Assembly (NCBI RefSeq): GCF_032118995.1
Contig: NC_092665.1
Span: forward strand, 15,954,012-16,018,011
DNA from: Asterias amurensis
Taxonomy: Eukaryota; Echinodermata; Asteroidea; Forcipulatida; Asteriidae
Length of the DNA: 64,000 nucleotides
Direction: 5' to 3'
Part shown: positions 9,557-31,034 of the stretch, in pieces
How positions within the stretch are numbered: the first letter of the stretch is position 1
Layout of the letters: every line of letters starts with the position of its first letter
Program-made: the position numbers and the translations under genes
The notes under the pieces: generated by a model
Told to the model about the DNA's origin: nothing
The model's database searches: none
The model's input: the letters and a program-made list of their open reading frames with translations, nothing else

Positions 9557-11272
9557 CTATTTCATCTCTGCCAACGAAGCGTACACAGTGGGCTCCTCTT
9601 TTGAGATTGGTCTCTCATTATGTTTGGATGGATTATTAATTAAATCCAAGTCAGCGTAAACAATTCCCTCTGCCTCAACCTCGGCCCACAAGTGACCCTC
9701 ATCCCCGGGGGTCGAAGAGGCGCGTTCTGCATCCGGGACACCTCTATCCGTGTCAGTGACGTCAGCAGATTGAGATGGTTCTGAGCTTCCGGTGGTACTT
9801 TTACAAGATACCTCTTCATGTGGGATCAAGTCTTTGATGCGGTCCTTATTGACTGAGGTATATATAGCCTCCTGTTGAGGTTCGTGAGGTGTCACCAACT
9901 GCTCATTTTTACGATGAGGATCCACTGATGCATATACTACAGGGAGGTCCGGTTCTCTCGAGACCTGCCTGGTACTCATGGCGTATGGAATGGGTCTTTT
10001 CGGAGGCTTGTCCCCGGTTCCCTTCACGGTCACATCCAGTTCTTTTGAGAGCTGCCTCGTACTCATCGCATAGGGAATGGGTTTCTTTGGAGGTTTGCCC
10101 CCACCAGTACCCTTCTTCTTGCTCTCTTTGTGGACGGAGGCGTAGACAACCCCCGTAGGTTTCTCGGGTGAGGCTTCGCTACTCTCACGGCGAGGTTGTA
10201 CGGGTTCTGCGGGTGCAACCTGATCACTCCCTTGCCGCATACTGAGCGCGTAAGGCACTGGCTTCCTGGGTGGGGCGCTGGAGTTCTCCACAAGGTGCTG
10301 TTCTGGAGGTTGGTGCGAGGAGGGGATGGAACGTCCTAGGCTCCGTCGCATTTTAAATGGTGACATTCCCAGCTTCCTGCGGCAAAGAATCAGCGCAGTT
10401 ATTACACCGAGGAGGATCAGTACCAATATGACGATGACAACGGCGACAATAGTCCCGGTACTGGAGGACGCTTGCGGTGATGTCGTGGTCGTAAGTGTCG
10501 CTGCGAGGTCCTGGGTCACGGCGAGGTCCCGGGTCACGGCGAGAGTAGACGGAGTTGTCACCGAGAGAGGACCAATCTGACAGCTGAGGGTCACATCTGA
10601 GAAGTCCACAGCCACGGACGAGCAGTTAAATGTCACTCCATCCTCAGCGGAGCTTACCGGGATCGTGAGCTGTGTTCCAGTACCGTTGATCGGGACGCTG
10701 GACGGCCAGTCGAGGACGTCATAGGACTCACCTGTAGAAACGGTGACCACGGCGGCCATCGCGTCCGACTCAACGGTGCACGAGATTGGGGTACCTGCGA
10801 GTAGAGACGCCGGACCTAAGGGTGAACAGGACGGGAAGATATCCGCTGGGTAGACGGTCATGGAAGCTTGTGCCGTAGATATAACCGCAAATGTTTGATT
10901 GTAAACCGTGCAGGTGTAAGTCCCGCTGAAGTCTTGGCTAGCCGGGGTTATAGTCAGAAGATGCACTTCAGGTACCGTGTCTGGGCTCGAGGTGCTGATT
11001 ACGCTCGTGGTATAACGCGGATCAGTGATTTGAGCGAGAAGCTTCCCGTTGAATGTTATAGTGTGGGTTTGGTTCCTCCAGCTTACAAGGTGGAATCCTG
11101 CCTGGAAACGGAGGATCTCACAGCGTAGCGAGACCGCGTCTCCCTCCCGGGGCTCGGCGGTAAACTCCGGCAGGACGCTGACGGTTGCTACCGCTGTTTG
11201 CGGGAGGACGTATGGGGCAATGAAGATGATACAACACAACACCCCGAAACGTACTTCAGATAAAAGGGCCAT
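9557..11272 (-). CDS. Intronless Ig-superfamily receptor with ITIM-rich tail (IgR-1)
   Basis: Single-exon type I membrane receptor of 571 residues. The ATG at 11272 is the first in frame and begins a good signal peptide (about 1-29); codons upstream in frame have no ATG. Ig1 has Cys51, Trp65 and Cys121 (FSGTYTC). A second Ig-like domain has four cysteines (149, 165, 217, 231). A Thr/Ser stalk and one membrane span (about 275-297, ending CRRK) follow. The tail of about 270 residues has eight tyrosines. VVYASV (Tyr377, Tyr447) and IVYADL (Tyr539) fit the ITIM consensus, TVYASL (Tyr564) is ITSM-like, and AIYTSV (Tyr471) is near-ITIM. A module KPPKxPIPYAMSTRQ occurs twice with a third related copy, giving PxxP SH3-type sites next to Tyr341, 401 and 430. 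Known family logic suggests recruitment of SH2 phosphatases; that and any ligand are inference. It is paralogous to the frames at 21602 and 29253. A tiny upstream frame (MKTTIE) precedes the start. Confidence 0.88.
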   Translation of the reverse strand: MALLSEVRFGVLCCIIFIAPYVLPQTAVATVSVLPEFTAEPREGDAVSLRCEILRFQAGFHLVSWRNQTHTITFNGKLLAQITDPRYTTSVISTSSPDTVPEVHLLTITPASQDFSGTYTCTVYNQTFAVISTAQASMTVYPADIFPSCSPLGPASLLAGTPISCTVESDAMAAVVTVSTGESYDVLDWPSSVPINGTGTQLTIPVSSAEDGVTFNCSSVAVDFSDVTLSCQIGPLSVTTPSTLAVTRDLAVTQDLAATLTTTTSPQASSSTGTIVAVVIVILVLILLGVITALILCRRKLGMSPFKMRRSLGRSIPSSHQPPEQHLVENSSAPPRKPVPYALSMRQGSDQVAPAEPVQPRRESSEASPEKPTGVVYASVHKESKKKGTGGGKPPKKPIPYAMSTRQLSKELDVTVKGTGDKPPKRPIPYAMSTRQVSREPDLPVVYASVDPHRKNEQLVTPHEPQQEAIYTSVNKDRIKDLIPHEEVSCKSTTGSSEPSQSADVTDTDRGVPDAERASSTPGDEGHLWAEVEAEGIVYADLDLINNPSKHNERPISKEEPTVYASLAEMK

Positions 11273-12159
11273 GTCAACAAATGGCTCAATACAGTTAGCC
11301 TTACTCAATGGTAGTTTTCATCCAAGCAAAAACGTACGTACATTGTTCAACACATTTGTACACAGTTATCGAAGTTTTCGTTGAAGTCCTGCATTGCTGA
11401 TCGGCGTTTCGAATTGTAATAAAACAGTATTCAATACACCAACACCGATTCTCAACAAAACGTTAAAGAATATTGGGACAATAAGTATATTTCCTACACT
11501 TTGAAGATCCGAGTGAACAATTGTTAACGTCCCCAATGTTTCTAAGGGTGGTGTCGGCTGATTCTCAATTAGACAAAAAAGTCTTCAGAATGAAACAAAA
11601 TACTTCGGCTTTCCATCAGATTATCACGATGAGATGGCTTCGGTTGGCCAAACTGCAGGGCGTACCATGGAGCAATATGAACCTATACTCCCCAGAATCA
11701 ACACTCAATGTAAAGATTTCTCATGAAGCATCTCCTCACCTGTATATTTACAATCTTTATTTCCGCAATAAACAAACAATCTAAATCCATTTTCCAGTCC
11801 TCACACAGTCAGAGATTCGTGTTCAAAGCTAGTCCTGACGTCATATAAATACCAATCACCAGATCGTCTTTCCCACGGAGTGAATTGTTCCGACAAATCC
11901 CGACTGTCATAACACGGAAGAGTTGGTTTATTTCCGTCTTTTATTTCCGGGTTTTTGAAGTACGGATGGCAAGGTGTACGAAGAGCCAGTTGACCCATCC
12001 TAAAGATGATATTCTAGTTTGACCATTGTTAATACTCACTCAGCCAGAGTACTTGTACTTCTGAACAAAACGCACTGGGAACTGGATACCATTTTGTTCT
12101 CATGCAAATGAACAAACGGCTCTTTTTAGATCATCCCAACTCATTTCAGATAACTATTA

Positions 12160-12240
12160 CATGGTGTTACCGCAAAGCTTACGTATACTATATAGTATTT
12201 ACACCATGCACAGTTTCAAATCCTACTTCTCATGCAAATC
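12160..12240 (+). repeat. ATGGTGTTACCGCAAA-family fragment
   Basis: ATGGTGTTACCGCAAA at 12161 is followed about 45 bp later by ACCATGCACAGTTTCAAATC and CTAC. The same two blocks in the same order occur at 27860-27920, and a variant lies at 50813-50860, showing a dispersed element with conserved termini. Confidence 0.65.
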
Positions 12241-12794
12241 ATTTGAACAAGAGAAGATTTCAGCCAAGTCTGTTTGAATACTGGGGAAGTTGTTTTCACT
12301 TGAGCTTATAGTTTTTAAGTGTGGAGTCTCGAACCATAAAAACGGAAAAGTTGAATTCTTGCCGAGCTGGTTTATCACCCATGACTGCAATATTGAAACT
12401 AATCGACCTTCTAATAAGGTAACAATTTCATTGTGATTTCTTTCCATTCTCCCCTCTCAAAAATGTAAGACGGCAGATTATTGTACAGGTGTCTTTATAA
12501 GTCACGAACCACACAATAATAATTTACACGCCTGTACAAGTGTTTTCCACAGAACTTGGTAAAGTAGCTGAGTTTAATACATCGGTGTTTAAGGTTAAAA
12601 AAAAATTGTATCCCGATTCAATGTAAAAATACATTTAGACACTTAACATGATTTGGGGTTTAACACAGATTGATTCATATTTGATAAATAGTTCCCATGC
12701 AAACGCAATGCAGTTAAACAAAAAAAAAACATTTGGGGGGGGGGGGAGGGAGTTCCCCTTCACACAAAAATAGATCACTGTCTCAATGGAAGTT

Positions 12795-12940
12795 CAACCA
12801 AAGGTCGAGAAAATGCTCTGAAAGAAAGAGATTGTTCACTCGGGTTATTGACTTGGAATTCTTGAAACAACCAAAGGTCGAGAAAATGCTCTGAAAGAAA
12901 GAGATTGTTCACTCGGGTTATTGACTTGGAATTCTTGAAA
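12795..12940. repeat. Perfect 73-bp tandem duplication
   Basis: Bases 12795-12867 and 12868-12940 are identical over all 73 positions (beginning CAACCAAAGGTCGAG, ending ATTCTTGAAA). Identity implies a very recent duplication, an allelic length variant or an assembly artefact. Confidence 0.95.
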
Positions 12941-13797
12941 CATACTCCTAACTGGACATGACAGTAAAGACAAGCGATCTAATTGAGCGAATAGGGCATT
13001 GACGCAGGGTCTTAATCAACCTTTATTAAGAGGACATCGAGGTTGACGAGTATATTGAGGTCGCTCCCCGCGAGGTATCTACACACAGCCAGGTGATTGA
13101 GTACACTTAGCCGTTTAGGGGTTTCCAGGGGTGGCCAAGGTCTATTGGGAGGTCCGGTTCAACTCCCGGTCAGGCTTTCTCTGTTTAAAGTCCTCATCAG
13201 ATCGAGTGAGAGGTCGTTAAGAAACTTCAAAATGTTCAAGGTATGGTTTTGTAGCCACGTGTGAACTCTGCGCACACAGAGTCAGCCCACAATGTTGAAA
13301 GCTCAACTCCAATCATACTAGTACTATTATTTATAATAATGATACAAAACTTCATAAAAGGAGAGGATAAAATACAACGCAACAAAAGGTATAAGCAAAT
13401 ACTAGTCAGCAAAATACAAATCCTATAATAGCACTGACAAACAAAGACGGTCGCACAGCCTTTGCGGACTAATTTGGTGACTAATTTGGTCTCATAAAAA
13501 AAATTGAAGAAAAGATGAGTTATTGCAGAAATCAAAAAAGTTATCCTTACAGCTTGTATACTTGAGAAAATAGAATTAGCTGTTGGAAACAACTTACAAA
13601 CCAAAAAGAAAAGGACCTATGGCATAAATGCAAAAGAAAGAAACATGTAGTCATGTTTTGCCCCTCTTTATCAGGTTGTGCACCATTACTGCATCTTGAT
13701 AAACTTAACAGCTTAACATTCAAGGTTAAACTATAGTCGGGTTTAGTCCCCCCCTCTCCACAGGTGTAAATTATATGTTCCTCTTATCTCGTTGAGA

Positions 13798-13815
13798 GGG
13801 GGGGGGGGGGGGGGG
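13798..13815 (+). repeat. Poly(dG) tract, 18 G
   Basis: An uninterrupted run of 18 G followed by AGAGAGAG. It is the longest of at least a dozen G or C homopolymers of 11 bases or more in the window. Confidence 0.95.
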
Positions 13816-14323
13816 AGAGAGAGTTGGCTAATCATATTTTTGATACCCTGGATCCTTAGTGACAGATGATCTGTGATTGACAAACAGCTAGACCGCTGAT
13901 ACAAACAGGAAGACAGATAATAAGCAAAGAAGCAGGTACATTGACAGACAATAATTGCAATCGATAGAATCGAGACATCCGCCAGAAATGCAGCGTTTAG
14001 TGGCACCTGTATCAGAGGGAAATGTCTATCTGCTGTATTCAGATTAAACGGATGCGTTATTTTTCTCATTGGATGTCTCACATGTTGTTGGGTTATTTTC
14101 AAGATGAAATTCTGTCAAAAAAAAGTTGAGAAAAGTAAATAATTGAACAAACACAAATGACTATTTTGTTTTAAAGGTTTGCATGTTCGCCCACACCAAA
14201 CAAGGCCAAAAGCCACTATTGGTAAGGGGCTACAAGAAGGAATCTTCAGGTAAGCTAAAAGTTGGAATTTTATCTTAAACAGTGAAATTATGAAATATTA
14301 ATTTATATTAAAACAGCTCTGGT

Positions 14324-14515
14324 GAGCTGAAGGTATAAATTGATATTCCTCTTTAAACAGTCTAGATTGTTGGATGGAGGGAAACATGCATCAGACAAGG
14401 AGTTCTAAAGAGAGAAACTCAAGAGAGCTGAAGGCAGGAATTGATATTCCTCTTAAAACAGTCTAGATTGTAAGATGGAGGGAAACATGCACTAGGCAAG
14501 GAGTTCCGAAGAGAT
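14324..14515. repeat. Imperfect 101-bp tandem duplication
   Basis: GAGCTGAAGG starts both units (14324 and 14425). They share ATTGATATTCCTCTT, CAGTCTAGATTGT and ATGGAGGGAAACATGCA with scattered substitutions. A third more decayed unit may lie at about 14250-14323. Confidence 0.8.
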
Positions 14516-16796
14516 GTTACGTGGGTGGTTCTATGTTCCATCTCCGACAGCAAATGGAAAGTGTATAGATGAGAACAAGCAGCGAGAGCTAGGTTTCACG
14601 CTCAAACATCCTGATAGGATGATCCAGGTCGGACAATCAATAAATCGCCCAGGCACTTGTTTCTTTTGACACACCTTAATTCTGGGCCATAACGATAGCA
14701 TATTGTATGTTTGCTTATTGGTTTAAAGTTCGACCTCGCCCAAAATTATTCCAGTGTGTGGCTGCTGCTAATGATGCTGATGTACATTTAAATCATTCCC
14801 TCAGACTCCCCCCCCCTCCCCTCCCCTCGACTATCCACATGAGCAGTTACAGCAACTGTCTACCATGACGAACCCCCACATGATGTCGGCAAGGGAAACG
14901 GGGCCTTTGCGAGAAGCCGTTACTTTGACATATTCAAACCGCCAAACCGAGCATGTGCCCGTTCGCAGTAACAGGTGCTGTGGGGGATCGATCCAACGCG
15001 ACCATCCCTTCCTGGGAGCAAATTGCCCCCCGTTATTAGTCACGTCGGGACGGGTGGCAAATGTTACACTACGAGCCTAATCCAGTGATGAAAGAACATT
15101 TGAATAGTCTGTCAAAACACATGAACAAATATCCCACAAGGCCAGCCTTCCACATTATGACCTCGATATCGACATAATTACCAAAATGTATCAGAGGATA
15201 AGTATTATGAAATCTTTTTAACTGGTGATGATTAATTACAAAGTGTTTGTGACAACAGCGTTATTGAAAACCTCCGTCTGTGCCAAGTATTGTAGGTTAC
15301 AGACGAGTAAGGAGGGGACTGTCAAAAATAAACTCTTAAGCTTTACCGGGTTTTACATGTGACCCTGATCAAAAAGAGAAGATACTCGACCCTGTGCATG
15401 ACACGTTTCAGGGCCAACATTATTGGAGCCTTCGTTAGGATACAGCAATTTGAGAAACATTTCACTTAAAAGTAATGTGGTTATATAAAAACGAAGTGTT
15501 CGACCCCCCCACCCCCCAAAAAAAATATTCTGAGAAGCGTGACTGTCAGTAATGGTTCTCATATTGTGTATTCCTATTTGGGATTATTCTCTGTGTGGCG
15601 AAATCGCTCCACGTTCAGGAAAATATACATGTTTCTCTGCTATCTAAAATAGGTGTCTAGCTAGTTTTTCAACACTCAAAAGCTTCCAAAAGAGTCAATC
15701 TCCAACAACCAATAAAATTCCTTCTACCATGCCCCATATTAATCTGGACCTCCGTCCACCTTTCCCCAGTGACTACACCCGATAAATCAAGGCCAAGTCC
15801 GACCCACATCTCGTTTAGGGGATATCCACACTTGCCGTAGTTTGCATTTCCAATTTCCAGGAGGGAACTAAAGAAAAATTATATCAATATTTTGACAGGA
15901 TGTTTTGGCGCTCAGTTTCTTGTCAGTCACCCAGTGACTAATATGAAGTGACATTTTTAAACTACTTTTATGACATAATTGAAGCTATGCTTGTACAATT
16001 ATTCTGACCCATGTGTTGGGGATTGAGTTTGTCCGTCATAAATTTCCCAGCAGATTATGACATGTTCTCTTACTTGGTAAATATAACTTCATTACTTCTA
16101 ATATTTCTTTAACTGTGTTCTTCTTAATGCTTGGTTTCCGTTTGAGTTAAAAGCATTGGCAGATATTTTTTAGGCGAATATAGATATCCGGTGTTGATTG
16201 TGCGCTGGGTTTTTAAAGCAACACTTTGTTGTATTTTTCTAAGATTCTGATGACCTTGGTTTTAAAGCAAGCTCAAGATCAGCATTGACTGCGATAAGAT
16301 TTTGTTTATGAGGGCAAGGAAGGAGAAACAAGTGCAAGGAACAACGCCGACTGAATGGAAGTTCAGACTAAAAGAAATTATCGCAAAAATGAACAAACAA
16401 ACATTCTGTAAATTGTTTGATTCTCAAAAATATCCACCGGCACAGGCATCAGATTTCGTCTTTAAGGCCATTTTGTTTGAACATTTCATTTTAAAAAGAG
16501 GGTGCTTACATTTGACAATTTTAAGTCTATGCCAAACTTTTGAAGGGCTACAAATGCCAAGACCTGGGCAACAGAGACCATGGTCTCATTCCCAGACCTT
16601 TTTACATACTTTATACCAGACCTTTTGACGTTACCAGTCTAAGCTGTTGTCAATGTTTTTGTACTCTATCTTGATTCAAAGCCAGTGAATCATTATCGAC
16701 ACTTTTGCCGGCATACAATGCTGTACCTAAAGTCGATGCACCCCTCCCAGCAGTTGCATAATATTACCAACTGTACATTATCTTGATTCAAAGTTA

Positions 16797-17187
16797 TTAA
16801 ACGAACACGTTGCCTTGGATCGGTCGAGTTGGTCTTTGAAAATCGTTCTGTAACCGTTTGTTGTAAAATGTATATGGTTAGAAAGATATTGTAAAAGTAG
16901 AATAAAATGATCTACACAAATATGCCTCGAAATTGCGTGGTTTTCTTTTTACCCTGTCGACTAACACGGTCGGCCATTTATGGGAGTCAAAATTTTGACT
17001 CCCATAAATGGCCGACCGTGATAGTTCGCGACGTAAAAGGAAAACCGTGCAGTTTCGAGTGATACTTGTGTGGATCATTATATTCTACTTTAAAAACATC
17101 TTTCTAACCATATGCATTTCATAACAAACGGTTTCAAACACTTTTAATAGACCAACTCGGCCGATCCAAGGCAACGTGTTCCTTTAA
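16797..17187. mobile_element. TTAA-flanked palindromic MITE, family 2
   Basis: A non-autonomous element of about 390 bp whose two halves are reverse complements. The right end AAGGCAACGTGTTCCT is followed by TTAA, the left end ACGAACACGTTGCCTTGG follows TTAA, and at the centre GACTCCCATAAATGGCCGAC faces its complement. A second copy lies at 56154-56530. The flanking TTAA on both sides points to TTAA-targeting transposition. No transposase frame is present. Confidence 0.85.
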
Positions 17188-17518
17188 GAATAACTTGTCG
17201 CAGTAGGGCTTATTTCAAACAAGCCCAAAGCTGTTAGCTTAAAAGAAATTTTCGAAATCCTAATAATGCGTCCGCTGTCAACTGAGTCCATCCCAAACCT
17301 TTTGGATTGCTTGCGTGTGAATTGTAAATCTTTTAATTGATAGGATGAAAAATGAATAATATATATTGATTAATCTATAAGAGTAACCTAGGCTTTGGGT
17401 TCAATTAGGCTGACCGGATTTCCCCTCACGCCCCCTTAAGGGAGTTGGCAGAGGCAGCTGGGTAAGCTCTCTAGGTACTGTCTCACGGGTGTTTCAGTAA
17501 TAGTTACGTTTAGTGTCG

Positions 17519-17700
17519 TGTCGAGGCCGATCGGTCAACCGTACTGGGCTCAATCTATGGTGTTTCTGATCAGCAGAGTGTAGGTTTGAGTCCCGGTCTT
17601 GACACCTAAGTCCTTTATCCTTCGGTCGGGACGTACAGCCGTGGGTCCCGTGTGCACGTAAAACCGTGTGTAACTAGCCGCGCATCTTCTCTATCCGTTA
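17519..17700 (+). repeat. SINE-A, longer copy
   Basis: The block TTTCTGATCAGCAGAGTGTA, then a B-box GGTTTGAGTCC (about 17584), matches the minus-strand piece at 54-128. The body continues with CGGGACGTACAGCCGTGGGT and CCCGTGTGCACGTAAA. The A-box is degenerate and no poly(A) tail is clear. Confidence 0.6.
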
Positions 17701-19592
17701 AAATAATTTTAGACAATGCATCAAACCTTTTTTGCTAAGTTTTTATAACAATCAAAAGTTTAAGGAAGCAATTTTTCACGAGTCACCATGTTTTATTTGG
17801 TCTGAACAACCGTCCGTTAACACTCCAAGCCAAAACTGCAGACCTAAAAGCATAACAATTACCAACAACTATTCTAATTACAGAATTCCGTTACGGTGTC
17901 CCAATTAGAGATCTTTGCCCATCCGTAGTCTATTCTAGACATGTCTGTAATCCGCCTGCCAAAATGAGTTAGGGAATCAGAATATCTGCATAAAGACCCC
18001 GGCTTATCAAAAGTCCGGTGTATGTGTTTCAAGCCACACCTGGCCGTCGTGTTCCCAAGCCTTCCCCCATTTGTTATTGACCGTTATGGGTTCAAGGCAC
18101 CCGCGCTTCCACGAGGACGCTTGCAAACCGCTCCCCACAACCCGGAAATGTTGCAGTTTGTAAATTAGGGAGTTTCGAAAGGCAATAACAATTTCTGCAT
18201 GTAAACAAGACAATAATGTAAAAGAATTAGTGTCTGCAAGTTGTAGGAAACTGGAAGTGGTTCATTATTGTGGTTTTTGAAGTAAAACAATAGAAACTCT
18301 CATTGCGTCAACTCAACGCATTGGATACAAGATTATATCATGAAATCATTTGACGTTCGTATATTATACATATGGCTGGTAGACTCAAAAGGAAATGTGT
18401 AGGCCTAGTCTTATTTCCAATTCTGTATGTTGTTAAGTATAAGCCTTTTGAGAAATATGATTATTTAGTACATCTTTATTTGATGTTAATGTTTAGAAAG
18501 GGATAGCTTTTCAGTATTACAACTGATATCTCTTGGATCACGAAGACAATCAATAAGAACAAAGCAATAAGAAAAGCCATGAATCAACAACAGAACATCT
18601 CAAGATTTTCAGTACAGAATTTCAAACATAAAATGAACTTGTTTTGACGATTTGTCAACTCGGTTGAATCTAATAAACGCAAACATCGTCGTAGAAATGA
18701 TTATTTCCTGGAGTAAAGACAGTCATCTTGGAAGGAAGTAGTCAGTCCCGGTTTGATTGAAGGGGCAGCACCCCGACCCATCTCTCAAACGTTGCTATGC
18801 ATGGACAGCCAGTCCTTGATCGAAGTAAACACAAGGGGTTCCCCTCATATTATCCACAGAGTACCAAACAATCAAGGCACGCTGTCAGACTCATCAGCAG
18901 TGTCTTCAAAAAGGTGCTTCAAATCTTAAAATATAAAGAAACTTTCTAAGAAATGCACTGATTGAAAACTACCTGTAGGATATTTGATAATGAGTTGGTG
19001 GTGACACACCATATATTCACCGGGGGTATAATCCCGTCGTCTTGGGGGTAACGCTATCGCAAAACCTTATGCACGAGGCTGTTCCGTCTTTGATATAAAT
19101 TGGTCTGGGCATATTATATCCCTGTGCTCATTAAGATTTATTTATAACTTTCTTGGAGGGAAAGGTAAGACATTGCGATGACTTCTGATGGAGGTGTGTA
19201 TAATGTTATAGTTTATTGAGTTATTTTGTTCACTATACAGACATCTGAAAGCAATGTGTCTTTAGGCCTACTGATTGAGGTGTTCAGATGTGGTGAAACT
19301 CACCACCTCAGTCACCATGACCGCCATACGTCCCATTTGACCTTGTATTAAACCTATGTTGACAAACAAAAATAACCTTGCATGGCATTTCCTTTAAGAC
19401 TAAACTTGTCATTATAGTTATAAGAAACGTTGTACATTGAAATCATAATCGCGACAAAAATAACACCTACACGAGGGGCGAAATAAAAGTTCATAAAAAA
19501 AAAAAAAATCGTAGAGTGCGATCTCCACGGGAACGTAGATTTTACGTAGTCCTCCATTGAGCTGATTGTTTGCGTGCAGGAAGTCCAGCAGC

Positions 19593-19752
19593 CGATTTCA
19601 CGAAACGCTAGGATCAATCTTATCTCGAGTTAGGACGAGTAACCCGTCCTAACTTAGGATGGGTTCAATGCGTCCTACGTATTTGGATACGGAATTGAAC
19701 CCGTCCAAAGTTCTAAGATTAATCCTAAGTTAGGAAGAGTTTGGTGAAATCG
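19593..19752. mobile_element. Palindromic MITE, family 3
   Basis: Begins CGATTTCACGAAACGCTAGG and ends GGTGAAATCG. Internal arms repeat GTTAGGACGAGTAAC, CCTAACTTAGGA and related palindromes. A partial copy in the opposite sense is at 56541-56649, and a sister family forms the hairpin at 46146-46312. Confidence 0.7.
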
Positions 19753-20452
19753 ACGGCAGGCTATGTAGCCCTTCTCTTCTAAACATGTAATGTCACAGGT
19801 TACATCTTTATATTAAAAAAAGAAAGACATTATCCCTTTTGAGATATGGTGGCCATTTTGGTGTTGGTGTCCTTTACCCAAACCTAACAGTGCCGTAGTA
19901 TCGTGCCCACCATTATCTCAAAATGGGCTTATAGTGGTTGGTTGTTATTGACTCTTCTATGCATGGATTCACTGACAAGAATCATTCGCAAGGTGACGCA
20001 TACAGATTGAACAAAGATTGTCAAACAAAATGGTATTTTCCACCAAATTATCATTTGAACTTCCCAGACATTTAATTGCTTAATTATTTAATTAAGATGG
20101 CTGCATATTCACGCGTTATCTCTGCCCGATTATATCGCACCATTTTACACTTTATATAGATAGCATCGCGTTCGCAATTTACACCATCCAGACTGGGTTC
20201 AACCAACGGGCAACGCCCATGCGTGCTTCGTCGTCTATACATGGGGTTGAATCAAAATGGTTCCAAATGGGTTGACCTATGTTTTAAACGGGTCTACACA
20301 AGTCACTTAATTAGTGACATCTGATGCAACGGAAAAGATCAAAGGAAAGACTGGAGCCTTTCGAAAAAGAGGTAAAAGTTGATCTATTACTTAACTTGGA
20401 TTTGATATTGGTTATCTACAGGGGTAAAAGCTCGAGGGAACGAAATAGCCTT

Positions 20453-20648: not shown

Positions 20649-21601
20649 CATGGAAATAGAACTGTGTCAGTATGCAGCCATCTTTGCTAGGTTCCCTGTC
20701 TCAATATAAACACACATTCTCATTATATGAAAAAGCACCAGAGTATTTAGTCATTTCAGCCTCGATTTGATGACAATGATTTGAATGCGAGAAAAACATA
20801 AGAATACAAAACACACGCCATTCTTGTTCTTTGTTTAACTTCAGATATATTATATATTTCTTACTCCATTAATCGTCATTTTGTTGATAACACATTCAGT
20901 CAAGTTGTGAACACTAACCGTATGGAAATTTACATTTCAAGTAAACTGTATACAAAGAAAAAATATAAATTAAATTCGAATAAATAATTACATTCTCGTT
21001 TCTAGTCTTGGAAAAGAAAAGTCTTTATACATCAATTACAATCATTCCTGACTTGCAGGAGACAGTTCAGATGGGATTTTAAATATTAACACTTTGAGAA
21101 AATCAAAAAGGATTTAACTGACAATAATTTCATACATCACATTTCAGTATTGGTATTCGATAAGCTTATTAGCGGAAACTTTGTGCCGCATAAATAATGA
21201 ACTCTTTAAACAATAATTAGAGCGCTAAATCTCAGATGCGTATCTCCCCTTCTTCCTGACCTTAAACAAAGTTAAAGTTTAGACTTAAGTTACACCAATT
21301 GTTCGTCGAAACCATCGAAGAGTGCACTTTTAAAGGGAACACCAGCCTTTAGTAAGTTTTGCTATTTGTCAGGTTTCTTTTTTGGTATTTTACAACGAAA
21401 GTCAATCGATTTGCAATAAAAATTGCTGCATAAATATAAATTATCGCCAAACACACCCTAACTTTATGAAACACAGAACGACAACACTCAGCAACAATCA
21501 ATAACAACAACAGCAACGAGCGTCATTTGTAAACGATGTCATAATTGTGTTTGGTATCACTGTCCTTGTGTTCTTCAATAATTAATGACTGCCCATTGTT
21601 T

Positions 21602-23449
21602 TTATGGGTCCAGAAGTGTCTCGTACGGATTTGTGGTTTCAGAATGTACATCGCTATAGATCACAAAGTTATTTGGCAATGTCACATATCGGGCACAGTC
21701 TTCAAAACTGCTACTGATGTGGCCGTATTTCTTCCGACTTTTCGAGGAGGGTCTAACTCTCCGACACGGCATCGTTCTGCTTCGATCCGAGTCCGCCAAA
21801 TCAGCCTCGTAGAGACTGTTGACGACCGTCTCAGCGTAAACGACTAGGGGTAGGCCGCTTGCGCGATCCACGGTAGAGTCGACTCTGGGTTTGTCCGTTA
21901 AGATCCCGGCTTCGTGATAAATATGCATGGATGTTATGACATTGTTTCGTGTGGTCGAATCGGCGGGTAAGGTGGGGTATTTTGTGCTCCATACATTCTG
22001 ATACCGCGGACTGTGAAACTTCATAGAGGTCCTTTTCCGTTTTTGCCTCTGGGGGAACCGTTTTACATAAGCAATGCCGATGATGCCTAACAGGACGAAG
22101 AGGAACAATGCAATGAGGACGATAAAGGCGATACCTGTGGGTCGAGAGAACCAGGCCTGTAAAGGGACAGCCGGTAGGCTTGGTTCGGAAGGCATCGGCC
22201 TGGTCGGTGTAGAGGTAGATTTGGGTAAGTTTTGATCTTTTGACCCGGTTGTCGTATCCGGGTCATCTCGTCCTGACGAACCCCGTCCCGTAACAAGGCT
22301 TATTGTGAGTGATTTCAGAGTTGTTGTTTTGGTAGGTTCGGTTGTTGTCGGTGCAACCCTGCGAGTCGTGACCGTAGTTGGAGGGGGAACGGTGGCCGGA
22401 ACCACCCGGAGTCTCGAGCTTGCCGTCCGGATTACACCAGCTATAACTGTCTTGCATGTTACGATCATGCCATCATCGTCCAGGTCTACGGCTTTGAGCC
22501 ACATTGAGTCTGCATAACCTCTGTTAGGTACCATAATCCTGTCCGGATCGACGAACGGAACTGTCGTCCATGTTTTTTGTACCTTCGCTTTGGGCACGTG
22601 CGGCGTTACGGTCAGGACGCAGTTTAGTTTAGCCGGGGAACCGACATACACCGTCAAGACTGGTTCCATGGTAAGAGCAATCATTGAACTGTGTGGTACT
22701 GGAACGGTAACAATCGGCCCAATGGTACAGGATGCCGCTCTTGGCTTGGGGCTACTTGCACTTATACGACACGGATAACTACTTGCAGCGTACTTTGCAG
22801 ACATAATCACCGTTAACTCACGGGTAATTATGTCATCGTTTTCGTAGTACGACCAGTTTGCCGGCCGGATCCCGCCGGCCGTGAGGAGCGGGACGGACCC
22901 CGCGACCTCCCGCGTGATCCTCATGTCGACGGTAGGGTTCCCGGACTCTGAGAGGCACGCCATTGTCATACGACTGTTTTCGATCACGTAGAACTCACCG
23001 GACGGGTAACACGTCGGAGGACTGGGGAAGTATAACACAGAGATGCTGGTAATCCCATACGCCACGGCAATGTTTTTAAATCTATCCATAATCTGGCACT
23101 GGTAAGTTCCATCATCTTCCTTGCGTAGCATTGTGACGACGAGGCGGTAACGCGTCCGTCTCGCCCTCGACTCCTCAGACACGAAGAACCTCTCCCTATA
23201 GTGGGCCTGGACGACGCTCCCCACGCTGACCAGTGTATTCCGGACACTCTCAGCGTCCATAAACACCCATGTTAGATACTGTGTTGCTTTGCTTAAGTTT
23301 TGAACATTGCACTCGATTGAGGCTCGCGTGCCGAGTTTCTGCTCTACCGGGGTGCCAACATCCACCCTCAGTACGGCACCCACTCCGGAGAAACTGCAAA
23401 TCCACATCATAGCGAATGAAGTGACCCATCGGATGGTTAAGGTAAACAT
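21602..23449 (-). CDS. Intronless Ig-superfamily receptor with ITAM-like tail (IgR-2)
   Basis: Single-exon frame of 615 codons starting at the ATG at 23449. Signal peptide about 1-26. Ig1: Cys47, Trp61, Cys118 in EDDGTYQC. Ig2: four cysteines (147, 165, 227, 241). Ig3: Cys277, Trp294, Cys332. A mucin-like Thr/Pro stalk (about 351-430), one span (about 438-461) and a basic stop follow. The tail carries nine tyrosines. YGHI (Tyr575), nine residues, then YVTL (Tyr588) meets the ITAM spacing rule; YSDV (Tyr598, also a VIYSDV ITIM) and YETL (Tyr609) follow at six and seven residues. YQNV (Tyr483) is a Grb2-type YxN site, and YPTL lies at Tyr491. HIYHEA (Tyr511) and YAETVVNSLY (Tyr538, 547) match the tail of the gene at 29253, proving kinship. 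An ITAM would normally engage Syk-type kinases; activation is inferred only. The uninterrupted length argues against a pseudogene. Confidence 0.9.
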   Translation of the reverse strand: MFTLTIRWVTSFAMMWICSFSGVGAVLRVDVGTPVEQKLGTRASIECNVQNLSKATQYLTWVFMDAESVRNTLVSVGSVVQAHYRERFFVSEESRARRTRYRLVVTMLRKEDDGTYQCQIMDRFKNIAVAYGITSISVLYFPSPPTCYPSGEFYVIENSRMTMACLSESGNPTVDMRITREVAGSVPLLTAGGIRPANWSYYENDDIITRELTVIMSAKYAASSYPCRISASSPKPRAASCTIGPIVTVPVPHSSMIALTMEPVLTVYVGSPAKLNCVLTVTPHVPKAKVQKTWTTVPFVDPDRIMVPNRGYADSMWLKAVDLDDDGMIVTCKTVIAGVIRTASSRLRVVPATVPPPTTVTTRRVAPTTTEPTKTTTLKSLTISLVTGRGSSGRDDPDTTTGSKDQNLPKSTSTPTRPMPSEPSLPAVPLQAWFSRPTGIAFIVLIALFLFVLLGIIGIAYVKRFPQRQKRKRTSMKFHSPRYQNVWSTKYPTLPADSTTRNNVITSMHIYHEAGILTDKPRVDSTVDRASGLPLVVYAETVVNSLYEADLADSDRSRTMPCRRVRPSSKSRKKYGHISSSFEDCARYVTLPNNFVIYSDVHSETTNPYETLLDP

Positions 23450-25053
23450 ACTTAGTCCAGTTTCACCTCTTAGAGGTCTCCAGAGATAAATAAATCCCCA
23501 AGGATGCTTGTCCCACTTGTTGATTTAGCTTAGTAAATCTGGCACAACGAAGCTCACCGTTGCCACCATATCGACGCACCGAGCAGGTACAACATTCCAA
23601 AAGGGGCTGAGCTGACTGAGCTACATAAACCATCCCAGTCAGACCTCCATGACAGTGTTCTTCAAAATGTGGAAGTAGCAAAAAGTTGGGTCCCACAAAT
23701 ACCTCAGCTCCCCGTTAGTCAGACAGCTCTCTCTCCACGTAGAAACGCACCACTCCACGTAGAAACGCACCACCGCTGTCAAGTGCGAACCGTGTCTCAG
23801 CAGAGCGCAACATACACACAAATTACGGGCATAAACATCGTGTACTAAAATACCGCATTAAGTCACTCGCAGGAGATCCTAGTGAGATGGTGTGTGGCAT
23901 GCAGCTGTTGTCAGTGTCGGCTACCATCATCATGTAGACACACTGATGGATGGGCGACTGGGTGTTACAAATTGTATTGCACTCCTGAGCAAGTGTTGGT
24001 TCGGTGCCAGTGAGTACCGTCCGCATCGCTACAGAGAGAGGAATGGCTTTAAGTGCTTTGCTAAGATAAAGAATGTAGATGCGTCAATGAGTGTGAACAG
24101 TGATGTTTCTTTACTACTTCTGCTATCCAGTAAATGAAGATGCATTATTAAACCACGCCCACTTCAGTAACATCCCCAGCAACGGTCCCTATAGTGACTT
24201 GGTCACGTGCGCATACGCCCTCAATAATCTTGCCAGAAGATTACTTCATAATCACAAAGTACATGTACAACGCAGCGATTCCATGTGACGGCAGCTTAAA
24301 TTTCTGTTGTGTTTTAACGCGTCTAGTTTTGGTTGTTTTAAAAGTCTTTTAGAAACTTTTGGGCGCACCTTCAAGGGGGTTAGTCAGCAGAGCGCTTTAA
24401 GGGGCGGAGCTTAATGCTGCGGTTCATGATTAAATCGACATGAACATGTTTTGCGCTAACATAAGTTGTGTCTGAGCAGTTCCAGAACATTCACTTTTAA
24501 TCTCACAGGGATCTCTGAAAAATCCCGGGTGAGAATTTACCCATTTTGGGGGAACCCTAGGTCCCCATATTCCCCCAATGGACCGTCCGCATAAGGTATT
24601 GTTGCCTTGTCTCAGGTCATTGCATTCTATTGTCTAACTAAATGAACATGTTTTTGCATGAACTAACTCTTTAACTCTTTGCAATCTTCGAATCGCGGAA
24701 CAATGACGTCTGGGTCGGAGACTAGTCTGCGTGAAGGACGTCTACACATGTTGCTATAAGTTCTCTGACACAGGATGTGTTTAATGACGCATAGGAAAAG
24801 ATGGAACCGATCTGTCCTATGGTGTGATACTACTTGTCGAAATGTTATGCAAACAATATGCAGAATACGAGCTTACTGGTGACAGAGGTAAAATGTGTTT
24901 CAAATCACGAAGCGTGGGCCTGAGAACAATCACTCTATTTTGTGCATCCCTGTGGAGATATCTTTTGTTCTTTCCTTTGTCCCTGTAGTTAAATACCTCC
25001 CTTAGACTTTGTACAACAGATTTCTTGTGGAGCGCTCCAGTCACTAATATTCC

Positions 25054-25205
25054 TTAAAGGCAGTGGACACTATTGGTAGTTGTCAAAGACTAGCCTTCAA
25101 AGTTAGTGTATCTCAACATAAACATCAAATAACAAACCTGTGAAAATTTGAGCTCAATCGGTCATCGAACTTGCGAGATAATAAAGAAAGAAAAAACATG
25201 TAATT
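25054..25205 (+). mobile_element. MITE family 1, left half only
   Basis: Starts TTAA then AGGCAGTGGACACTATTGGT and continues colinearly with the elements at 45125 and 55439 through GAGCTCAATCGGTCATCGAA. It then stops, so the right arm and right TTAA are missing. Confidence 0.8.
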
Positions 25206-27828
25206 CTTCTATTTGGAGATTAATAAAGTTTCTTATGTCTTATGTCTTACTGGAGACCTTTTGTTTTCCTTTTTCTGTTTTGTCCTCGGTCTCTTTAAGA
25301 TAGTGAATAATTAAATCAAGAGTTCCTCACAAATGCAGGGACTTGAAACACCATGTGCACAAGCTACGCCAAGGCACACACAACCTTATTAGAGTCCAGT
25401 TTGAAGGGGCCTGCTTTCGTTGTACTATTATTCCCATCAAAATACATTCTATTTATTCTGAGAGAAAAATCCCACAATCTCATTTCGTCACGCAGTGCAA
25501 ACATACATGTATGCCTCTTGGGGGAACTGTTTCTTGGTCCAGTCACTACAATTTGCAACACCGGCTCAACGAGAGTCCATTATATTCCCTCCACGCCATT
25601 CAAGAACAGGAAACAGCCAATTTCGACATACATATATGGAAGATTACTATAGCTCAACCTCTTTAACGGTGACAGATCATTGGACTCTAGCCATGTATGT
25701 AAGGGAAGGGGGGGTCGAGCGAGAGGCAGGGTGCCAATGCCCGAAGACATCTCGACTTCCTCATCTGAAGGAATCAGCCGAGGAGGAACTTAAAAACGGA
25801 AGTCTGCTAAAATAAAGGGACACTAGTCTGAAACATTCTGCGGGTCTCACAGAATACATGTATACATATTATATAAATAAACTCAAATGGCTTCAGGCCA
25901 GGCTTACACCCACTACACGCAAAGGTCAGGCAATTCTAGAAGTTGGTAACTTAAATACATTGAAACGCTTTCTAACATCTTGGACACAATATGTAGAGGA
26001 TACAAGTTCAAGAACCAGCGTCAACAGAATGTATCTAGGCTCTATTTTTGCTATTTTTAAATCTCGTACAGGTATGCATCACCAAGCGCCAAGGTTTAGT
26101 CATAACTTCTTAATGTTGATTTTAAGGAGCCAGAAATCACAGAATCATATCGTCGGATTAAGGTTCTTCGGCAAATAAATGAGAAAACTATCCAACAGAC
26201 GGAACCATAATAAGACTTTTCCCGGGTCGCAAGGTTTGCCTTTGATTACATGTCACACAGAGTTAAAACAAAGTGCAAAACCTAAACCCGCTAAGCAGGT
26301 GCTGTATTAACCATCTGACAAATCGAATAGAGTTGGGAATCATTTTTGCGGGAAGCATTTACAAACCGGGGCTTAAGGGAGTTTATAAGGTCTGTTTACC
26401 CCCTTCACATAACAATACACATCAAGTTACTACAAGGCAATTAGCTTTACAAACTGCGAGCGTTAGTGTCTTTATTTGATCAAGTGTTGGCAGTTTGGTT
26501 TGGCTAAAAGTTTCATCTTTATATGGGGTTAATATGCTCTTCTAGTTTGCTTTCCCGCATTTTTCTCTTTTTTGTGTATTAAAAGCCCAACCATAAAACG
26601 ACTCAGTGATAAGACGTCACCGTAAACTATATCTTTCAAGTCTGTCTTAATTTCAAGTTTACTGGGTTTTTAAGTCTCAGTGTTTTCATGTTTTGAAGGG
26701 TGTTGTGGCAGTATGCGATTCTCCCAACGATTTGCCTTCACTCAAAAAGTACACCAGTCTCAGAATATACAAAATGTGATCAGCTTCATTCCAATATATG
26801 ATATTGAGAAGAAAAAAAACATCACAACAAAAATCATTACTCAGACAGGCAGAAAACCAAAACAAACAATTTAAGTTTTTTTTATTTTATACATCGCCTT
26901 GAAAAAGGAAGAGCATAGCAGGTTTTTTTAAGGACAAGTGTAGACTTGGTAGAACCACCTAATCTCGAATCTGATTTAACTGGCAATGTTATGGAAGATA
27001 GGGTTGTGTTAGCTTATTTTTCCATGTAAATTATTATTACAAAAAAAGTGACCTTGAATATCCCAGGGCCTTAGCGTAAGGCAAGATCCTACATTATGGC
27101 CAATGTACTATCGGAAATTACACATTATGTCATAATTTTCTCATAAATTTAAGAGTTGTAAAAGTAACAACTGGACAAATGTGCCCCACATGTATGATTG
27201 TTATCAACTGTCAGATCAAAAATTGCTAAAAACCAGACAGTGTAATCTGCACAAAAATTATTTATTCAATTGAGCTGATGAATACAAATCTAGCCTGCAA
27301 GTCCAGGATCTGTTGCTCTTTGAGCTGTGCACAAATTGTGCCTGCATGAAGTCCATGCTCTATATGGCTCTTTTTAAAAACATGTGATGTTATGGTGATA
27401 GCCTACAAAAATTGCAATCTGTATGAGCTTCCTCCATGGTATAAACGTCATCTGAACGATGCCCGGAAATGCTGACTGGGAACGGTACAAGGTCGCTCTG
27501 CAATCAGGCATATCTAAAGTCCCTATTTAGTCAAACCACTGCGACAGTAAACGCCTTAATGGACCCGAAACATAGCAAAAGTGACAGTTGAATTATTAAT
27601 TTGCAATCCTTTCACACGCCACCCCAACCAAGGTTTGAGCCATCTGGTAAAAAGGTGTCCTAAATGGCTGGAATTTTAAAACAAGGTGTCCAAATTGGTC
27701 ACTTAAAACAAACTTGCATGTATAATGACTCATAAAAAAGAGTGTCCAAATAATTACAATCGGGTGTCCAATAGACACCCAGACACCCATTTGACGACTA
27801 ACTTTTCACAATTTTTCACATGAATAAC

Positions 27829-27920
27829 ATATAGAAGAGTTTGCGGTAACACCATGCACCATGGTGTTACCGCAAACTCTTCTATATCTTATCTCCACCA
27901 TGCAAAGTTTCAAATCCTAC
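27829..27920. repeat. Perfect 28-bp inverted repeat with 3-bp spacer
   Basis: Bases 27829-27856 and 27860-27887 are exact reverse complements around CAC; each arm contains GAGTTTGCGGTAACACCATG or its complement. The downstream block CACCATGCAAAGTTTCAAAT links it to the fragments at 12160 and 50524, suggesting two element ends joined head to head. Confidence 0.9.
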
Positions 27921-28655
27921 ACATGTATAACCTAAAACATGTTCAGATTCTTGTTTTGATTTTGAATCCTCAAAACTATGTGTGCAGGTGTCAAAATGAA
28001 AAACAAAATATAATTTAAACTCTATAAACACAGTTTTTACAGCGTAATTCTTAGCTTTAAGTCAGAGCAAAGGTCTTAACACTGACCGTCATCATTATTT
28101 TTTATTATTTTAGTTTATGCAAGTCGCCAGACACACAAGGCCTGAATGCCACTTTAAGGTGTGAGCTACAATTGATTTTTGTTTTCCAGACACCGTTGCC
28201 ACCATGTACTCCTAGGGCTGAAACAGGGTTACCCCTTGAACTGTCCATACGGGTAGGCTTGGGTATCATCATTCATGCGTTAGAATGAGCCCATATTCAT
28301 CTGAATCTTCATTAAAGCATGATTGATTGATTGTGGATGACAAACCGACAAAAAAGGATATACATAAGAAAAGTAGAACAGATTATAGAGGAATTGGTGA
28401 CGAATGGATAAAATCCGGCGTGAGAATCTTCCTCCGATCAATTGGTAACACGAAAGACAAGTGTTCTTTCCTGTTGGTTCAATAATGGCTTTCAAACCAC
28501 AGAGCAAACTATTTATTGCAACATGACAAATTGGATGTGTCCAAATACTGGAATGTGCATGTCAAGTCTAATAAAATTGCCTAATACACTAACATGCAAT
28601 CATGGCTTTATACAATTTGGGAACAAATATGACTAATGATTTCGTTTAGTTCGGG

Positions 28656-28815
28656 CTTACTCGGTGGTCTAGTGGAAAGACATCTGTACAAGCAACAAAG
28701 GTCGTGGGTTTGAATCCCAACCGAGTGATTGCCTGTTGAATTTGTTCAAATAGCTTAGGAAAGTACTAAGTATACAGCGCTCAATATCGGTGTATTAAAG
28801 TGTAAAAAAAAAAAA
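28656..28815 (+). repeat. SINE-B, near-complete tRNA-derived copy
   Basis: The tRNA-like head has a box A TGGTCTAGTGG (28665-28675) and box B GGGTTTGAATCCC (28706-28718). The ends CTCGGT and ACCGAG can pair like an acceptor stem. A body with GGAAAGTACTAAGTATACAG and an A-rich tail (about 28803-28815) follow. The intact boxes and tail suggest a young pol III-derived retroposon. The other copy is on the minus strand at 4530-4660. Confidence 0.8.
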
Positions 28816-29074
28816 TAGATTCTTTATACCTGATGCAAAACTAACATCTATTAAATTGTGTTTTATATTGATATCTATTAAATTCGTTAGTTAAACTCTT
28901 AATACAAAAACTTAATACATAAATATATAATGATCTATAGGATTCACATAATAAAGAATCACTACTAACAATCTTAGTTTATCTTGAGGCTTCATAAGAA
29001 CTTAATTAACGAAAACAAATCAGATTCAAATTCTCGTTTGTTGTGATGTTTGTTCTCTTTATATTTGTTAACTT

Positions 29075-29089
29075 TTTATTATGTTTATT
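29075..29089 (-). terminator. Candidate polyadenylation signals for IgR-3
   Basis: Two AATAAA hexamers on the minus strand (29084-29089 and 29075-29080) lie about 165-175 bases beyond the stop codon of the receptor gene at 29253. No other evidence of cleavage is available. Confidence 0.5.
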
Positions 29090-29252
29090 TTGGTATCATA
29101 GTTTAACATCTTTAGCGAAACGCATATCGTGATTTGGTTCCAGCACTGTTTTGATATTCTGTCTCACAGCTTATTAAATAAAACTCAGCATTTGGTACTT
29201 TTGTCCACCACAATTTCCTTCAATATTTGTAGCCATCATCTCAGCTGTGTCT

Positions 29253-31034
29253 CTACTCTAAGACGGTAGAGTATCCATCCTCCAAGATGACTTCTTGAGT
29301 CAGAGGAACATAAAGAGTATTCTCCACAGTTTCAGCGTACAACTCCAGCTCTGGAACGGGAGATCCACATTCAAAATGCACCTCCTCCGACTCGGAGATG
29401 AGCACATCCTCTTGGCTCTCGTTCAACGGCAGAACCACCACTTCAGCGGCCTCTTGGTAGACATTCTCCCCTTCTGTTGAGAGCGGATCCGTCGGGTCCA
29501 CTGCTTCGTGATAAATATTATTTCCAACAAATGTGGACGTCACAGTTGGGCCCACAGTCTCGTGGTAGATGTTCTCTCCGCCGAATGCATCCGGTGGTCC
29601 TGTTGTCGGATCGCTTGCTTCGTTGTAGATGTTCTCAGAAAACATCGTCAATGGTCTTGAGTTTAGGTACACCGGTGAGTAGCCTGTGTCCTGTTCAGAC
29701 CGGAATTGAGCTTCTTGAACCGTGTTGCGATTCAGTTTGCGTCTTCGGCGGTATGTCAGGCACACTACCATGAGTATAGTCAGCAATAAAAGCACCACAG
29801 CAGCACCAGATATTATTGCAATGGAACTTGGCTCGGTATACCAAGGGAGGTTTGATGTTGGGGGTAAGGTGCGCGTAGACACAGAATTGGTTGCAGCGGT
29901 GGGATACCCAGAATTGATAGCAGAGGTGGGATACACTTCAGTTGTGTCAGGAATCGATGCACTGTGCGTAACATGCAAGGTTATTTTTCCCATGTAGACT
30001 TTACCCTTGAAGATAACCGCACATTCTAAGACACTTCCACTATCCTGCACAAGGACGCCTATATAAACATTTCTTTGGATCGGATTGCCTGAACGGAATG
30101 TTCTGTTGTAACCAATCTCGGAAGGGATCTGCCAGTGACGCTGGATGTAGTCTGTTGCTGACACGGGTGGTGTAAATACAATATCACAGGTGAAGCCTGA
30201 AATGACTCCTTCCCGTAGTGGGAACTGATGCTGACGAATATTGACTGATACGTCCATTGCTCCAGGAGGCACTGGCAACACTGTGATGATACCTATTATG
30301 CAAGTTCCATAAACTAGATAGCTATCCACTTCTGTTTCAGTAGCACATACAAACTTACTGTCGTTGAACTTGCTATCAACAATTAAACTGAGCTGTTTGA
30401 CAACCGAGCCGCTACTGTCATTCACGACCTCCCAGTCAGCGTCTTGAGGTCCGGCCCAAGACGTCAAGGTGTTCCTGGGTGGTATCCATGTAAGTGTCAT
30501 ATTGCCCGGTGATGCGACCTTCTCCGATGAGCAAGAGATACCCAGCAAGCTTCCCTCCATGACGCTTACCGATCCCTCAGGGGAGCATGAAAGAGCCTTC
30601 GGGTGATCGTGTAAGGAGACGGTTGCAGTTGCTGCTGCCAACGTTCGGCGAGTCCTTATATCTACCACCACACACCTATAGTCACCGGTGTCGCCAGGCA
30701 TCAAGTCACTTATAGTCAAGTAATAGTCCAGATTTGTGAGAGTCAATTTGTATACACTGACCTCAAATCGCCCATTGCTGTACTGTCTGTCTACCGTCAG
30801 TCCAGAGCTGACGACCGTCAGTCCAGAGCTGACGACATTCTTATGAATCCAGTAAAACTCTTGATTCAGTAAGTTCACGTTCCGAATGGCACATTTGATC
30901 GTTACAATGTTCCCTTGGTATTCTCGGATGTCCATCGGAGCAACCGTAACATTGAGCTCCATAGCGGCAGACACACTTTGAATAAGAACAGCGATCATCA
31001 GTGTCCACAGTGCAGTCTTTGCTGAACCCTTCAT
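29253..31034 (-). CDS. Intronless Ig-superfamily receptor with repeated NIYxEA tail (IgR-3)
   Basis: Single-exon frame of 593 codons from the ATG at 31034. Signal peptide about 1-23 (ends VSAA). Ig1: Cys48, Trp62, Cys121 in DTGDYRC. Ig2: Cys150, 168, 230, 245 with Trp183. Ig3: Cys283, Trp301, Cys338. A Thr/Ser/Pro stalk, one span (about 405-427) and a RRRRK stop follow. In the tail, EN(I/V)Y(N/H/Q)E(A/T)-type modules occur four times at 18-20 residue steps (Tyr470, 490, 508, 526). YLN (Tyr456) is a Grb2-type site. YAETVENTLYVPL (Tyr566, 575) parallels IgR-2. YVPL, nine residues, then YSTV (Tyr588) is ITAM-spaced but ends in Val; TLYVPL is also ITSM-like. An in-frame 21-bp direct duplication (30794-30835) lies inside Ig1. 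Ligand and signalling are unknown. A possible acceptor TTTTGTTTTAAG lies in the leader, so a 5' UTR intron cannot be excluded. Confidence 0.9.
   Translation of the reverse strand: MKGSAKTALWTLMIAVLIQSVSAAMELNVTVAPMDIREYQGNIVTIKCAIRNVNLLNQEFYWIHKNVVSSGLTVVSSGLTVDRQYSNGRFEVSVYKLTLTNLDYYLTISDLMPGDTGDYRCVVVDIRTRRTLAAATATVSLHDHPKALSCSPEGSVSVMEGSLLGISCSSEKVASPGNMTLTWIPPRNTLTSWAGPQDADWEVVNDSSGSVVKQLSLIVDSKFNDSKFVCATETEVDSYLVYGTCIIGIITVLPVPPGAMDVSVNIRQHQFPLREGVISGFTCDIVFTPPVSATDYIQRHWQIPSEIGYNRTFRSGNPIQRNVYIGVLVQDSGSVLECAVIFKGKVYMGKITLHVTHSASIPDTTEVYPTSAINSGYPTAATNSVSTRTLPPTSNLPWYTEPSSIAIISGAAVVLLLLTILMVVCLTYRRRRKLNRNTVQEAQFRSEQDTGYSPVYLNSRPLTMFSENIYNEASDPTTGPPDAFGGENIYHETVGPTVTSTFVGNNIYHEAVDPTDPLSTEGENVYQEAAEVVVLPLNESQEDVLISESEEVHFECGSPVPELELYAETVENTLYVPLTQEVILEDGYSTVLE
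30794..30835 (-). repeat. In-frame 21-bp duplication inside IgR-3
   Basis: The 21-mer occupies 30794-30814 and again, identically, 30815-30835. In the protein it doubles SSGLTVV between strands of the first Ig domain without breaking the frame. Confidence 0.95.

Follow-up and report, generated by a model that had tools for sequence, protein, structure and literature searches.

Three single-exon immunoglobulin-type receptor genes of the sea star Asterias amurensis: a diverged cluster with a conserved array of inhibitory-type motifs in one tail

The 64,000-nucleotide stretch of Asterias amurensis DNA analysed here (contig NC_092665.1, positions 15,954,012 to 16,018,011; below, the window) carries three related single-exon genes, A, B and C, which encode type I receptors with immunoglobulin (Ig) domains. 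The cytoplasmic tail of A holds a non-random array of immunoreceptor tyrosine-based inhibitory motifs (ITIMs) that is kept in another sea star, Patiria miniata, and by these motifs A is probably an inhibitory receptor that acts by way of SH2 phosphatases. On the best reading, A, B and C are an old, diverged tandem cluster of Ig receptors and not close paralogues, and B and C appear to use a phosphotyrosine code separate from that of A and conserved in the relative of B. Among the open-licence papers listed (title and start of abstract; the subscription literature lies mostly outside), we recognised no echinoderm Ig receptor family with ITIM tails or with tails carrying immunoreceptor tyrosine-based activation motifs (ITAMs). 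Within those papers, the three genes are apparently an undescribed asteroid variant of invertebrate ITIM/ITAM receptors.

In the open reading frames, A, B and C are intact from ATG to stop, with 571, 615 and 593 codons, all on the minus strand and within 21.5 kilobases (kb), a small cluster of the kind in which paired receptors occur. The three single-exon, same-strand Ig receptor genes of the earlier note are thus present, with a first Ig domain recognised by Pfam in each, weakly in A:

9557..11272, minus strand: gene A, single-exon type I receptor of 571 residues (signal peptide, two Ig domains, membrane span, tail with ITIM array)
21602..23449, minus strand: gene B, single-exon type I receptor of 615 residues (signal peptide, three Ig domains, membrane span, tail)
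29253..31034, minus strand: gene C, single-exon type I receptor of 593 residues (signal peptide, three Ig domains, membrane span, tail)

An in-frame stop lies 48 (A), 78 (B) and 6 (C) bases 5' of the ATG, and the GC content is 0.54, 0.52 and 0.48, respectively, against 0.395 in the flanks. Each protein has a hydrophobic N-terminus followed by one strong hydrophobic segment; signal peptide and membrane span are called by hydropathy only. A tblastn search with the three proteins revealed no further copy in the window, intact or decayed (every row beyond the matched genes had an E value of 2.3 or more), and within 1.5 kb downstream of each gene there is no run of 10 or more adenines that would trace a retrocopy. 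One full-length relative of each was obtained by protein search, namely P0001 of C (93% identity; on a 3,969-base contig), P0002 of B (58%; on a 37,955-base contig) and P0003 of A (40-49%; LOC119745397 of the sea star P. miniata), with an E limit of <=0.01 for C and <=0.1 for A and B. The match of A to P. miniata agrees with the echinoderm setting of the earlier note. These few relatives say little on family size, because the search needs shared five-residue words and scores only the best 7993-7994 candidates.

The ITIM consensus is [SIVLT]xYxx[LVI], and four strict matches were found in the tail of A, against 0.41 expected from 20,000 residue shuffles (P 3.5e-4). The tail of P0003 contains three strict ITIMs and, beyond these, near-matches of the type xxYAxV, and six of the eight tyrosines of A are kept there, an excess over the rest of the tail that is nominally significant (P 0.014). 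The sites are as follows:

9560..10381, minus strand: cytoplasmic tail of A, eight tyrosines, six of them kept in Patiria
10133..10150, minus strand: ITIM VVYASV (residues 375-380)
9923..9940, minus strand: ITIM VVYASV (445-450); VHYASV in P0003
9851..9868, minus strand: ITIM-like AIYTSV (469-474)
9647..9664, minus strand: ITIM IVYADL (537-542); LIYAEL in P0003
9572..9589, minus strand: ITIM TVYASL (562-567); TVYAEL in P0003

The array persists in P. miniata even though 84 positions of the A tail stand opposite gaps in that sequence. Moreover, a proline-rich module, [KR]P[IV]PYA[ML]S[TM]RQ, occurs in three copies in A (9965-10264, residues 337-436) and once in P0003, which suggests a lineage-specific change inside the tail; since two of the three modules are missing in P0003, the tail varies in length with most of its ITIM sites retained. 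A has the layout of an ITIM-bearing Ig receptor, with signal peptide, Ig domains, one span and cytoplasmic [SIVLT]xYxx[LVI], and it carries the ITIM that marks the inhibitory member of a paired-receptor system. The earlier note had seen ITIM-like motifs in one tail and proposed an inhibitory-type receptor; both proposals gain from an array that is non-random and shared across species.

The same tyrosines could be read as sorting signals of endocytic or scavenger receptors, YxxV/L then not being docking sites for SH2 domains. In fact, YxxPhi occurs more often than expected in A (5 sites, 1.46 expected, P 0.005) and in B (6 sites, 1.94 expected, P 0.003), and one such site would suffice for sorting; but C shows no enrichment (3 against 2.2, P 0.39), and neither the upstream V, I or T at position -2 seen in A nor the conserved YxE[AT] form seen in B and C belongs to a sorting signal. 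We regard this alternative as very unlikely.

The tails of B and C share a different conserved module, YxE[AT]/YAETVxNxLY by sequence pattern, of which the YxE[AT] part is repeated in C. Their features are these:

21740..21937, minus strand: B tail core (residues 505-570) with IYHEA and YAETVVNSLY; 54 of 66 residues identical in P0002
21677..21727, minus strand: B strict ITAM-spaced pair YGHI-x9-YVTL, lost in P0002
21614..21658, minus strand: B C-terminal pair YSDV-x7-YETL; YSDF-x7-YESL in P0002
29448..29633, minus strand: four [NH][IV]YxE[AT] modules of C (29616-29633, 29556-29573, 29502-29519 and 29448-29465)
29310..29339, minus strand: C YAETVENTLY, common to B and C
29262..29282, minus strand: C hemITAM-like EDGYSTV at the C-terminus, with V instead of L at +3

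The repeated NIYxEA module ascribed to one tail is borne out in C, where [NH][IV]YxE[AT] occurs four times against 0.002 expected (P <5e-5; such a count arose in 0 of 20,000 shuffles). All four copies are kept in P0001, which at 93% identity to C is too close for testing motif constraint. Of the four pieces of the B tail that were counted, its core is the most conserved, with 54/66 residues identical in P0002 against 11/25 in the ITAM-array part, the least conserved part of the tail (P 7e-4), and against 209/327 in the Ig domains of B (P 0.004). The ITAM-spaced array claimed for B stands in so far as one strict pair is present (0.024 expected from 20,000 shuffles, P 0.023); it does not last in the relative, where YGHI...YVTL reads YGNA...NATL, one tyrosine and the hydrophobic residue of the other site being lost. 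We set the strict ITAM of B aside as an activating device, because P0002 has lost the pair, while the relaxed pair YSD[VF]-x7-YE[TS]L is kept. The hemi-ITAM (hemITAM) consensus is [DE]GYxxL, and its strict form is absent from all three tails; relaxed patterns, set after the motif in C had been sighted, gave P 0.02 when one acidic residue was required and P 0.004 when two were. The earlier note does not mention this end of C. As for the tail pieces said to be common to the three genes, B and C do align above shuffles (P 0.019), while A aligns with neither B (P 0.52) nor C (P 0.61; 2,000 shuffles for each pair).

The motif P values are uncorrected and cover seven patterns in three tails and then three more patterns. 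After correction, those for the A array of ITIMs and the repeated modules of C would hold, and the ITAM and hemITAM values would not do so firmly. A C-terminal tyrosine that is invariant in the alignment was left unused, as it may be an end-of-alignment effect.

Common descent of the three genes holds, as had been proposed. BLASTP relates B to C at E 9e-22 (B 12-521, C 10-480) and A to C at 2e-4; between A and B the values are merely 0.03 and 0.1. A profile of A with P0003 matches a profile of B, C and their relatives with an hhalign probability of 95% (E 2e-8). Moreover, all four cysteines of the second Ig domain are invariant in the six aligned sequences (A, B, C and three relatives), and the signature C-x-P-x-G...C...C...C-x-I-G has three matches in the six frames of the window, one per gene and none elsewhere, so the four-cysteine Ig2 is indeed common to all three. 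The genes had also been called close paralogues, and this description does not fit: over Ig1-Ig2, identity is 17.3% between A and B, 21.8% between A and C and 24.6% between B and C, against 54.3% (A), 65.3% (B) and 96.7% (C) to their own relatives. If P0003 is the orthologue of A, we infer that the family split is older than the split between A and P0003.

The Ig fold of the ectodomains is recognised by Pfam, by a profile search of PDB sequences (best E 2e-11) and by Ig matches of low-confidence models. The first domain is above the Pfam cut-off in B (V-set, E 6e-10) and C (ig, E 4.5e-6), and in A it is a weak match under the family cut-off (Ig_3, E 4e-6). The weakest call is Ig3, which in B depends on a Pfam Ig_2 match with E 0.003 for the whole protein and in C on alignment alone. 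None of the three membrane-span cores contains a charged residue. The domains and spans are placed as follows:

10850..11188, minus strand: A Ig1, V-like (residues 29-141; Pfam and model, boundaries by eye)
10553..10849, minus strand: A Ig2, cysteines C149, C165, C217 and C231 (alignment and signature)
10382..10456, minus strand: A membrane span, core uncharged (hydropathy)
23030..23374, minus strand: B Ig1, V-set, E 6e-10 (Pfam)
22700..23029, minus strand: B Ig2, four cysteines (alignment and signature)
22394..22699, minus strand: B Ig3, weak (Pfam Ig_2 row, and strands where model confidence is low)
22064..22138, minus strand: B membrane span (hydropathy)
30615..30962, minus strand: C Ig1, V-like (Pfam)
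30270..30614, minus strand: C Ig2, four cysteines (alignment and signature)
29967..30269, minus strand: C Ig3 (alignment with B only)
29751..29831, minus strand: C membrane span (hydropathy)

A perfect 21-base tandem duplication lies in Ig1 of C at 30793-30836, after the core tryptophan, and P0001 is without seven residues there; this suggests that a loop of the V-like domain has recently changed in length.

AlphaFold models of A and B are poor, with a predicted local distance difference test (pLDDT) of 47 and predicted template modelling scores (pTM) of 0.31 and 0.35. The comparison with known Ig receptors that the earlier note proposed yielded Ig matches but did not assign membership, given the pLDDT of 47 and the tied matches: the B model resembles Rst, SYG-1, JAM and nectin, and antibody (Fab) chains score in an equal range. 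We rejected any ligand class from structure, as the models are too weak and Fab chains and adhesion proteins tie. The resemblances raise the alternative that A, B and C are non-immune cell-adhesion or developmental receptors, that is, homophilic or heterophilic V+C2 Ig proteins whose tyrosine tails dock cytoskeletal adaptors. We find this somewhat unlikely, since the models that recall adhesion proteins are of low confidence, the ectodomains have drifted to 17-25% identity, and the array of A is a classical ITIM array.

Our preferred account, which we hold to be about as probable as not, is that of old tandem asteroid type I Ig receptors in which A is inhibitory, the phosphotyrosine code of B and C is a different one, and coelomocytes are the likeliest site of action. 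The ancestor of the three would have been one gene that was already intronless. The receptors would bind a surface or microbial ligand through the V-like Ig1 and the four-cysteine Ig2, and a Src-family kinase (SFK) would phosphorylate the tail tyrosines. In A, the V/I-x-Y-A-x-V/L sites would then recruit an SH2 phosphatase (SHP- or SHIP-like) and so dampen an activating pathway engaged at the same time, in the manner of amphioxus BbLcLRR when tested in T cells; the sign of the signal is predicted from the motifs. In B and C, the YxE[AT] and YAETVxNxLY modules would dock SH2 adaptors or kinases, and the hemITAM-like C-terminus of C could engage Syk. Coelomocytes are presumed as the cell site. 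Transcripts of Syk, Src-family kinases, Csk, Grb2, PLC-gamma and SH2 phosphatases are described from P. miniata eggs (PMC11593052).

Those eggs suggest another setting, in which A, B and C are egg-surface receptors that feed the SFK-PLC-gamma calcium pathway at fertilisation. P. miniata eggs are described as using SFK1, SFK3 and PLC-gamma, and the authors take T-cell receptor (TCR) signalling as their model (PMC11593052); but A looks inhibitory, and we rate this role as extremely improbable.

Several results weigh against the preferred account. Conservation of tyrosines over the rest of the tail is not significant in B (8/9 in P0002, P 0.097) or C (9/9 in P0001, P 0.84). Conservation is not significantly different between Ig domains and whole tails in any of the three (P 0.09 in A, with the Ig domains better kept, 0.92 in B and 0.09 in C). 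ITIM counts do not exceed chance in B (2 against 0.58 expected, P 0.11) or in C (2, with 0.71 expected, P 0.15). The poor quality of the AlphaFold models belongs here as well, and the matches of the B model would suit adhesion proteins no less than immune receptors. An activating partner of A is hypothetical on these sequences, and pairing, an immune role and expression of A, B and C are putative.

A bolder version would give asteroids a germline Ig receptor system of their own, in which A with its ITIM array is balanced by the second code of B and C (YxE[AT]/YAETVxNxLY and the hemITAM-like end of C) in the control of self and non-self by coelomocytes. We think this unlikely. Sea stars are reported to recognise foreign cells and grafts (PMC9763293, PMC2248247), and coelomocytes of Patiria pectinifera are described as aggregating around and phagocytosing allogeneic cells (PMC9763293), in a paper whose main text does not contain the word "receptor".

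The neighbours of the cluster are unremarkable. A single-exon BTB-BACK-Kelch frame of 631 residues adjoins the receptors (37317-39212, minus strand). Exon pieces of BCAS2 (41990-44216, plus strand), of a sigma-1-receptor/ERG2-like gene (46857-47207, minus strand) and of an M13 peptidase (62172-62447, plus strand) are possible gene-order landmarks for other asteroids. Two small single-exon frames (50937-51557, plus strand, and 53111-53758, minus strand) each have one Pfam fibronectin type III match, below the cut-off in the latter, and a membrane span seen by eye, and lie on the same side of the receptor cluster. The latter frame also weakly matches the BAMBI C-terminal model (E 0.002).

If A does inhibit coelomocytes via SH2 phosphatases, the control of immune cells by ITIMs would reach into the echinoderms, where the interplay of activation and inhibition could then be tested. 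The second code, conserved in the tails of B and C, would be a new docking signal to decode.

Among known systems, the earlier note drew the comparison with vertebrate paired receptors, which include SIRP, KIR, LILR/PIR and PILR. Like A, B and C, they are clustered type I Ig receptors of which one has an ITIM tail; by the definition given in PMC3533184, their ectodomains are significantly conserved, and activating members are short-tailed with a basic residue in the span. Here, in contrast, the ectodomains are 17-25% identical, the tails have 151-271 residues and the span cores are uncharged. Two tested features of the definition, ITIM and clustering, are thus present, and two, ectodomain similarity and a short-tailed activator, are absent. 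An activating member with its own ITAM was also considered: the strict ITAM of B is lost in P0002, the relaxed pair is kept, and C ends in a hemITAM-like motif. A true paired cluster, with A as the inhibitor and B, C or both as activators for ligands that are the same or overlap, would draw on the one-strand clustering and common descent, the ITIMs of A, the EDGYSTV end of C and the C-terminal pair of B. It has to contend with the divergent ectodomains, the long tails with uncharged spans, the loss of the strict ITAM pair and the lack of a strict hemITAM in any of the three tails. We judge it distinctly unlikely and do not retain the paired-receptor reading.

Closer in taxonomy, Lytechinus IgTM is an echinoderm protein with Ig and membrane-spanning parts, and differs in its skeletal-branching role (PMC6768484; compared by description only). 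The oyster CgIgIT and CgIgIT2 are invertebrate Ig-superfamily receptors of haemocytes with tyrosine immune motifs, but they are molluscan, and CgIgIT2 has five Ig domains; the motif of CgIgIT2 is an ITAM according to the review and belongs to an inhibitory receptor according to a title cited there (PMC11999971). Amphioxus BbLcLRR is, like A, an invertebrate deuterostome receptor with ITIM-like tail tyrosines. It is described as inhibiting TCR-induced signalling in T cells when three tyrosines are intact and as associating with SHIP1 and less with SHP1/2 (PMC8211107), but its ectodomain consists of leucine-rich repeats, not Ig domains. Tail motifs of this kind are also reported for the Hydractinia alr genes (PMC12065747). 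Botryllus FcoR differs in its sushi domain and its pairing with fester genes (PMC12065747), and no sushi family occurs among the Pfam matches of A, B and C at E <=0.1. In other respects FcoR is, compared by description, the nearest layout among the systems considered: a type I receptor of 520-610 residues with one V-type and two C2-type Ig domains, whose long tail may contain ITIM, hemITAM or core tyrosine motifs (PMC12065747).

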